This document shows, piece by piece, positions 21,660 to 22,262 of a stretch of DNA of 64,000 nucleotides; the stretch's first letter is position 1; each line of letters opens with the position of its first letter. A program made the translations under genes and the position numbers. The notes under the pieces are model-generated. The model did no database searches, had not been told where the DNA came from, and saw only the letters and a program-made list of their open reading frames with translations. This DNA is from a candidate division KSB1 bacterium (GTDB taxonomy: Bacteria; Zhuqueibacterota; Zhuqueibacteria; Residuimicrobiales; Krinioviventaceae), in assembly GCA_034521575.1 (NCBI GenBank), contig JAXHMJ010000005.1:2418001-2482000 (forward strand), given 5' to 3'.

Positions 21660-21733
21660 GGGGTCGTAGTGCAGTTGGTTAGCACACCGGCCTGTCAAGC
21701 CGGAGGTCGCGGGTTCAAGTCCCGTCGGCCCCG
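21660..21733 (+). tRNA. tRNA-Asp (GTC)
   Basis: A 74-base cloverleaf: GGGGTCG / CGGCCCC acceptor (one G-T pair), D-arm GTGCAGTTGGTTAGCAC, anticodon stem CCGGC / GCCGG with loop CTGTCAA (GTC), T-arm CGGGTTCAAGTCCCG, discriminator G. Two altered partial copies follow at 21801 and 22163. Confidence 0.97.
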
Positions 21734-21739
21734 CATTAA

Positions 21740-21771
21740 TAGGAGAATCATTTTTTGGTTCTCCTATTTTT
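21740..21771 (+). terminator. terminator of tRNA-Asp
   Basis: TAGGAGAA / TTCTCCTA stem followed by TTTTTG. The same place after the tRNA-like copy at 22163 holds a variant of this hairpin. Confidence 0.85.
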
Positions 21772-21800
21772 GTTTATAGTGAAGAGATATTTTCATTGGT

Positions 21801-21872
21801 GCGGGCGCAGCTGTTTAGCACATCCCGATGCTCGGGAAGGTCGCGCAAGTCGGGTTCGGCCCAGCCCGAAGG
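21801..21872 (+). repeat. tRNA-Asp-like copy 1 with replaced anticodon arm
   Basis: GCAG..TTTAGCACA matches the D-arm of tRNA-Asp. The anticodon arm is replaced by TCCCGATGCTCGGGA, a 6-bp hairpin with a GCT-type loop. AGGTCGCG then matches the variable region, the T-arm is altered (CAAGTCGGGTTC) and GGCCC matches the start of the 3' acceptor. It cannot fold into a normal tRNA. It shares a near-identical 50-base core with copy 2 at 22163. It ends in its own terminator at 21870-21899. Confidence 0.7.
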
Positions 21873-21899
21873 AGGACCCCCAACGGTCCTCCTTTTTTT
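21870..21899 (+). terminator. terminator after tRNA-Asp-like copy 1
   Basis: AGGAGGACC / GGTCCTCCT stem with a 6-base loop followed by seven T. Confidence 0.85.
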
Positions 21900-21921
21900 G
21901 TTAGGCTAAAAAAGGGGGTCT

Positions 21922-22170
21922 ATGTATTATACTTATATTTTAGAAAACGCTCAGGGGGTTTACTACATTGGACAAACGAATAACCTTAAAGAAAGAATAA
22001 AGCGTCATAATCGTGGTGGATCGCAATATACCCGTGGTAAGGGTCCCTGGCGGCTTGCTTATTATGAAGAATTGCCGGACAGATCGAGTGCAGTAAAACG
22101 CGAGAAGGAGTTAAAAGCGATCAGGAACAAGAAAGTGTTAAAAGAAATAATCGAGCAAAAGAATGGTTAG
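21922..22170 (+). CDS. small GIY-YIG endonuclease domain protein
   Basis: An 82-residue stand-alone GIY-YIG nuclease domain. YYTYIL and YYIGQT are the paired strands that name the family; LKERIKRHN has the catalytic Arg; VKREKELKA holds the metal-binding Glu. Such domains cut DNA and occur in repair (UvrC), restriction and homing enzymes; small ones of the UPF0213/YhbQ type have nuclease activity. Here the gene lies between two altered tRNA-Asp-like copies, and its TAG stop (22168-22170) is inside the second copy, in GGTTAGCACA. That setting suggests a mobile or formerly mobile element at the tRNA-Asp gene, though this is an inference. Confidence 0.85.
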   Translation: MYYTYILENAQGVYYIGQTNNLKERIKRHNRGGSQYTRGKGPWRLAYYEELPDRSSAVKREKELKAIRNKKVLKEIIEQKNG

Positions 22171-22219
22171 CACATCCCGATGCTCGGGAAGGTCGCGCAA
22201 GTCGGGTTCGGCCCCGCAT
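22163..22219 (+). repeat. tRNA-Asp-like copy 2 with replaced anticodon arm
   Basis: ATGGTTAGCACA matches the tRNA-Asp D-arm, then TCCCGATGCTCGGGA replaces the anticodon arm, AGGTCGCG matches the variable region, the T-arm is altered, and GGCCCCGCATTAATAGGAG (22210-22228) is identical to the end and 3' flank of tRNA-Asp. So the 3' junction of the real tRNA gene is duplicated on the far side of the nuclease gene. Confidence 0.75.
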
Positions 22220-22223
22220 TAAT

Positions 22224-22254
22224 AGGAGGATCCATACGGGTCCTCCTGTTTTTG
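22224..22254 (+). terminator. terminator after tRNA-Asp-like copy 2
   Basis: AGGAGGATCC / GGGTCCTCCT stem followed by GTTTTTG. The bases after it (TTTTTGTTTATAG) also repeat the flank of the tRNA-Asp terminator. Confidence 0.8.
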
Positions 22255-22262
22255 TTTATAGG

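Follow-up and report, generated by a model that had tools for sequence, protein, structure and literature searches.

The tRNA-Asp locus studied here, from a candidate division KSB1 bacterium, probably harbours a small selfish chromosomal element: a free-standing GIY-YIG homing-type endonuclease, akin to the SegB protein of phages, that would target a tRNA gene (in this case tRNA-Asp) and that is accompanied by tRNA remnants disarmed by palindromes. We assign to this reading a probability of about 0.66. The window, i.e., the whole stretch of DNA that was analysed, comprises 64,000 nucleotides, and the positions given below refer to it. Three observations carry the argument. The remnants are partial copies of the adjoining tRNA with a palindrome in place of one of its arms, which is usually the anticodon arm (nt 27-43); the nuclease gene is linked to tRNA genes across many phyla; and the nuclease lineages, as judged from sequence trees, track the tRNA isotype and not the host phylum. 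From these we infer that the nuclease cuts tRNA genes.

The tRNA-Asp locus and the altered tRNA copies

The components of the locus are listed in Table 1. The intact tRNA-Asp gene is the sole good match in this genome, where no second full-scoring tRNA-Asp was found. In both altered copies, the 15-nt palindrome TCCCGATGCTCGGGA stands where the 17-nt anticodon arm CCGGCCTGTCAAGCCGG would be; the motif TTAGCACA-TCCCGATGCTCGGGA-AGGTCGCG occurs exactly twice in the window, at 21815-21845 and 22167-22197, and a whole-genome search confined the combination of D arm and hairpin to these two places in 5.26 Mb. Both copies have an altered T arm (GGTCGCGCAAGTCGGGTTCGGCCC versus GGTCGCGGGTTCAAGTCCCGTCGGCCC); copy 2 retains GGCCCCGCATTAATAGGAG and the flank ATTAATAGGAG, together with its acceptor end and a terminator. 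The nuclease ORF terminates in a TAG (22168-22170) that belongs to the TTAG in the D arm of copy 2. A previous sequence-only reading of this DNA had described the swapped anticodon arm, the rearranged T arm, the gene lying between the copies with its stop codon inside the second one, and the conserved 3' flank and terminator, all of which were found again; its statement that both copies derive from the 3' part of the tRNA holds for copy 2, whereas copy 1 also keeps a degenerate 5' half from approximately 21798 (around 18/25 bases match, by eye). The sequences flanking copy 2 are similar to those around the intact tRNA, a resemblance that suggests local duplication more than import and counts against the main reading. 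An Rfam scan of the window returned tRNAs only, with no other known RNA family and no group I or group II intron.

Table 1. Features of the tRNA-Asp locus (positions within the window)
Feature	Position	Strand	Evidence
Intact tRNA-Asp(GTC), presumed target	21660..21734	+	ARAGORN, Rfam
Anticodon arm of the intact tRNA-Asp (nt 27-43), CCGGCCTGTCAAGCCGG, 17 nt; swapped out in the copies	21687..21703	+	sequence; edges measured
Terminator 3' of tRNA-Asp	21738..21768	+	predicted stem
Altered copy 1: 5' half (degenerate), end of the D arm, palindrome, T arm (disturbed), part of the acceptor end	21798..21866	+	
Palindrome TCCCGATGCTCGGGA of copy 1	21823..21837	+	motif search
Terminator 3' of copy 1	21868..21895	+	predicted stem
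GIY-YIG nuclease gene, 82 aa, single catalytic domain	21922..22170	+	Pfam, AlphaFold2, PDB match
Altered copy 2: D loop to acceptor end and 3' flank; holds the nuclease stop codon	22165..22220	+	
Palindrome TCCCGATGCTCGGGA of copy 2	22175..22189	+	motif search
Terminator 3' of copy 2	22221..22250	+	predicted stem

A second GIY-YIG gene of the same genome adjoins tRNA-Met(CAT) (L003, G000:C2:521026-521238); its 3' end enters a tRNA-Met piece with the palindromes TCCGCCAGTAGGCGGA and TCCGCCAACCGGCGGA, which are linked by CCTG.

Altered copies are a recurrent feature of other loci as well. When intact tRNAs were used as bait to seek palindrome-interrupted copies, 90 such copies were detected in 49 loci (a few being counted twice where loci overlap) and the reversed bait, used as a control, gave 0; therefore, chance is excluded. 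The interruption lies in the anticodon arm in 53 of the 90 copies and in the T arm in 15, and for 37 of those 53 the edges fall at nt 25-28 and 42-45, i.e., the arm alone was replaced. Upstream copies tend to contain the 5' portion of the intact tRNA, to about nt 50-60, and those located downstream start near nt 14-21 and extend to the acceptor end. Likewise, when 82 genomes were searched for one palindrome in the context of the D arm and the variable loop, 12 matches in 6 genomes were obtained (0 with the reversed pattern), and a nuclease gene was found near four of the five clusters of matches on contigs long enough to judge. The exception is L208 (G023:C21:62300-64200), where tRNA-Arg(TCT) is followed by 2.5 tandem tRNA ends with palindrome arms and terminators and no nuclease gene; these copies would have multiplied either without the nuclease or once it had been lost.

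It is very improbable that the copies work as tRNA-like RNAs, each with its own terminator, for instance as decoys or by regulating the nuclease or translation. The copies do keep their terminators, and those of the window have fold energy z-scores of -2.4 and -3.9; however, these values are mostly due to the terminators themselves, the predicted folds are not cloverleaves, and both palindromes and breakpoints vary among close relatives at the same site. Most copies at other loci lack the 5' or the 3' acceptor strand, and on account of this incompleteness the structured-RNA reading was rejected. Among the three readings previously offered for the copies, the best fit is that of cut-resistant remains of the target, since it is a tRNA arm, mostly the anticodon arm, that the palindrome replaces.

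The nuclease and its linkage to tRNA genes

The window protein matches PF01541 (Pfam, E 3.7e-18). In the nuclease alignment Y5, Y15, G17 and R25 are invariant and E61 is nearly so, and the AlphaFold2 model (pLDDT 90.8) is that of a confident single GIY-YIG domain; both the fold and the conserved Tyr, Gly, Arg and Glu residues that characterize the GIY-YIG superfamily are thus present. The folds nearest to the model are UPF0213 and SLX1, and the best PDB match, by sequence as well as by fold, is the UPF0213 protein 1zg2. The UPF0213/URI-type small GIY-YIG proteins (1zg2, 1ywl) have the size and fold of the window nuclease; they are uncharacterised, and the available part of their documentation describes no tRNA-linked element for them. 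In four of the five nuclease pairs with unsaturated dS, dN/dS is 0.09-0.15, values which indicate that the gene is kept under purifying selection; the fifth gave 0.46, which counts against the main reading. Seg proteins have a DNA-binding part beyond the catalytic domain; Pfam and AlphaFold2 detected none in the 82-aa protein, which counts against the main reading, and because of this missing extension the element is not filed in the Seg family, its cleavage and homing activities being putative. Mobile genomes gave few relatives: no close relative of the window protein was found in viral contigs, where the Lys-type profile detected 21 weak ones, plasmids and phages gave distant matches only, PHROGs gave no match, and PADLOC gave only weak partial matches.

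A scan of species-representative public genomes with the Lys-type profile provided 80 relative loci from Patescibacteria, Ignavibacteriota, Bacteroidota, Nitrospirota, Planctomycetota, Verrucomicrobiota and other hosts. A tRNA gene, of diverse isotypes, lies <=150 bp away in 37 of them versus 2.5 expected from the tRNA density 500-2000 bp away within the same loci (binomial P 5.7e-34), and in 36 of these 37 the nuclease and the tRNA are on the same strand (P 2.8e-10). The nearest homologues of the same phylum adjoin tRNA-Lys, tRNA-Asn and tRNA-Ser, with the same build as in the window. In a search of 395 Bacteroidota genomes with the Asp-linked profile, 64 showed a match at E <= 1e-20, and a tRNA gene is located at <=150 bp, always on the same strand, in 26 of the 29 best loci. 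Furthermore, in many loci the 3' end of the nuclease gene is fused to the D arm of the matching tRNA. As is the case for SegB, the gene adjoins tRNA genes and stands outside any intron or intein.

The units formed by the nuclease gene and an altered tRNA piece can stand in tandem. In the Bacteroidota locus L262, five units come after tRNA-Asp with a period of 315 bp, each made of the nuclease, a tRNA end with a palindrome and a terminator, and in L263, from the same phylum, three tandem units precede tRNA-Ser; two tandem GIY-YIG genes stand beside tRNA-Lys in L008/L063, each ending in the tRNA-Lys D arm and ATCCGCCTNAGGCGGAT. In L007, copies of tRNA-Lys with ATCCACCTTTGGTGGAT in place of the anticodon arm are located both before and after the GIY-YIG gene. 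tRNA genes are usual attachment sites, which would favour an integrase-type island attached at the tRNA 3' end. Nevertheless, such an island is contradicted by the size of the units, which measure merely 0.3-0.4 kb, and by their gene content, as no integrase-like ORF was found in the local list of ORFs around the site (judged by their neighbours); the breakpoints moreover fall in the anticodon or T arm instead of at an att core of the 3' end. We regard this explanation as extremely improbable.

Another Bacteroidota locus, L241, shows many copies of tRNA-Asp and tRNA-Gly in a row, several palindrome-bearing tRNA-Asp copies and a GIY-YIG gene alongside; this may be a SegB-like amplification of intact tRNA. 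A large clade of Patescibacteria nucleases is mostly devoid of altered copies (L083, L085, L090, L099-L105, L113, L114 and similar loci), and some of its members lie 100-600 bp downstream of tRNA-Gln; possibly, this clade represents a stable, non-mobile branch.

The relationship between the nuclease and the isotype of the adjoining tRNA was evaluated on the nuclease tree, which is short and has many forks without resolution. On this tree the isotype changes 17 times versus a mean of 30.2 for shuffled labels (the lowest of 1000 was 25). When vertical kin were dropped by keeping one row per phylum and isotype, 13 changes were counted versus 19.6 (lowest of 2000, 16), and the phylum label carried no signal (16 changes versus 15.8). 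The addition of the Bacteroidota rows gave 36 changes versus 54.4 (lowest 47), and the Bacteroidota alone 18 versus 24.5 (lowest 19). Given that isotype changes are fewer than with shuffled labels and that phylum is without signal, the nuclease sequence follows the adjoining tRNA across hosts. Asp-linked nucleases of Nitrospirota and Flavobacteriaceae form a group with the window nuclease in the smaller tree (SH-aLRT 94); in the larger tree with Bacteroidota this Asp-linked group was not recovered as one, although two of its members are still the nearest rows to the window nuclease. Contrary to prediction, the loci that the Asp-linked profile fetched in Bacteroidota were not exclusively Asp-linked, as 6 of the 29 best loci are of this kind; therefore, this profile is not a clean isotype recogniser, a result that counts against the main reading.

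These data also bear on the possibility that recombination-prone tRNA loci just accumulate pseudo-tRNAs, palindromes and passenger genes, with the nuclease gene as a bystander. Such a view is already unlikely, given the strong and strand-biased linkage, the tracking of isotype, the fusion to the matching D arm and the purifying selection on the gene; in its favour, some copies have no nuclease gene in their vicinity (L207, L208, L211, L212). The sequence-only reading had stated that the element idea would fail if related genomes showed the nuclease and the altered copies apart from each other. This separation is found in part, in the four loci just mentioned and in the many Patescibacteria nucleases without copies, and it weighs against the main reading; nonetheless, it looks like decay or action in trans and not like the lack of any connection.

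Orthologous sites and dispersed palindromes

The tRNA-Val/tRNA-Asp locus is conserved across the order to which the window belongs, so that different states of one orthologous site can be compared. The full element is present in the window, and G012:C53 contains a 5'-truncated nuclease remnant with two copies upstream and one downstream. Copies alone were found at the sites of G004, G006, G007, G013, G015 and G016, and the sites of G001, G003, G005, G010 and G020, as well as a second Val-Asp locus of G012 (G012:C27), are empty. The palindromes at this locus differ between genera. This mosaic of full, decayed and empty sites is only suggestive, in terms of sequence comparison, of preferential inheritance into sites without the gene. 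Recoding of the intact tRNA was not seen, since the occupied site of the window and the empty site G012:C27 have the same anticodon arm; this counts against the main reading. The earlier proposal that an element enters a tRNA gene or targets it, for which a comparison with empty sites had been advised, is strongly supported by the adjacency to tRNA genes, by the isotype-tracking nuclease lineages and by the full, decayed, copies-only and empty states of this site.

A different view assigns mobility to the palindromes. According to it, the GIY-YIG protein would act on hairpins in single-stranded or cruciform DNA, much as RAYT acts on REP sequences, and would swap or insert palindromes at natural hairpins such as tRNA arms. 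We consider this a minor but real possibility. A foot, TCC[C/G]...[C/G]GGA, is common to 46 of 60 distinct palindromes from many phyla, and the palindrome often exchanges exactly one hairpin for another. The window palindrome TCCCGATGCTCGGGA is a dispersed repeat of its own genome, with 51 matches versus 5 for the control, and forms long arrays far from tRNA genes. Bacteroidota genomes that bear the nuclease are richer in such palindromes than those without it (median 13.5 versus 4, P 3e-8), a correlation that ignores kinship, genome size and the palindromes within tRNA copies. In addition, one nuclease clade is inserted in-frame in protein genes, between palindromes. On the other hand, palindrome arrays occur far from any nuclease gene, recognition of palindromes alone would not be expected to leave an isotype signal in the nuclease, and we know of no GIY-YIG protein that acts as a transposase. 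The reading of a nuclease that targets the tRNA gene is preferred here.

Several arrangements of these palindromes deserve description. In the genome of the window, arrays of 15-bp palindromes (TCCCGATGCTCGGGA and its sisters), joined by CAGGC with a 20-bp period, are located at G000:C2 292000-302000, 389000-398000 and 413000-424000 (L057, L058, L059); they sit within higher-order repeats of 400-500 bp that are rich in other hairpins, and no tRNA or nuclease gene is nearby. In a Bacteroidota genome, TCCCGATAGCTATCGGGA appears three times at an exact spacing of 403 bp (G151:C44:277431-278254), possibly another palindrome array. GIY-YIG domains with palindromic flanks were found in-frame within genes for alanyl-tRNA synthetase, HsdR, HsdS and a protein of unknown function (L094:1170-3395, L098:63-3608, L069:1200-2867, L093:2-1795); these four form one clade with a support of 99, and no intein or intron was seen at these loci.

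Proposed mechanism, known systems and meaning

In the mechanism that we propose, the nuclease would cut its cognate tRNA gene at or near the arm that is found replaced, usually the anticodon arm, and recombinational repair would then copy the nuclease gene and a stretch of the tRNA into the locus, multiplying the units in a way that resembles the SegB-driven tandem amplification of tRNA-segB units. The surviving copies would be those in which the target arm was overwritten by a host palindrome; only these would persist, because they are neither cut again nor able to act as a faulty tRNA, and one intact tRNA would always be retained because the cell needs it.

SegB is a free-standing GIY-YIG homing endonuclease of T-even phages (PMC13096335; PMC2988022). 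Its cut sites were mapped inside tRNA genes, and its activity leads to tandem repeats of tRNA and truncated segB through homology between the tRNA and the end of segB (PMC13096335). The motif RAWTSGAAC from that study (PMC13096335) reads, in our own interpretation, as the complement of the conserved T loop. The phage system shares with the loci described here a GIY-YIG gene beside tRNA genes, tandem units of tRNA and nuclease, and a linkage to tRNA over many homologues (PMC13096335; PMC2988022). It differs in that SegB is phage-borne and larger than 82 aa, whereas the present element is chromosomal and consists of the catalytic domain only; in that no preferred isotype was reported for SegB, in contrast with the isotype tracking of the present nucleases; and in that its repeats carry intact tRNA, with no palindrome-altered copies reported, and not disarmed tRNA pieces (PMC13096335). 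SegB is the closest experimentally known system, and the present loci look like its chromosomal counterpart. The sequence-only reading knew of no named system with this build and did not mention SegB; as for a bacterial system, the open-licence PMC literature yielded no description of a bacterial GIY-YIG/tRNA association or of palindrome-altered tRNA copies.

Two other systems share some of these traits. As in REP/RAYT (TnpAREP), there are small dispersed palindromes with a shared foot and an adjoining small nuclease gene; however, RAYT is an HUH/Y1 transposase (PMC2817692; PMC8266576) and the present gene encodes a GIY-YIG nuclease, and the foot of REP is GTAG or CGTC (PMC3733652), whereas here it is TCC[C/G] and the palindrome lies within tRNA copies. 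In the rRNA genes of CPR bacteria, GIY-YIG genes were likewise described as insertions into a structural RNA gene that are not introns, and the insertions in those rRNA genes lie mostly at the top or the base of a stem-loop (PMC11270868); that case concerns rRNA and not tRNA, and the available part of the article reports no palindrome-altered copies or tandem arrays.

A wider interpretation, which we offer tentatively and consider doubtful, is that of a mobile-element class new to the literature and spanning phyla, composed of a one-domain GIY-YIG nuclease and the palindrome family with the above foot; the hairpin arms of tRNAs would be swapped for palindromes that mark and immunise the cut site, and the same machinery may explain the dispersed palindromes and the in-frame nuclease insertions.

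Bacteroidota and Patescibacteria commonly encode small GIY-YIG proteins, most of which are uncharacterised. If the main reading is true, a large share of them would be selfish nucleases specialised for single tRNA isotypes, and cells would have to cope with an enzyme directed against one of their essential genes; this would explain the tandem remnants of tRNA that lie next to many tRNAs. A candidate enzyme could also become available for the short dispersed palindromes of these genomes, and the tracking of isotype would offer a ready set of natural nucleases with differing target specificities.
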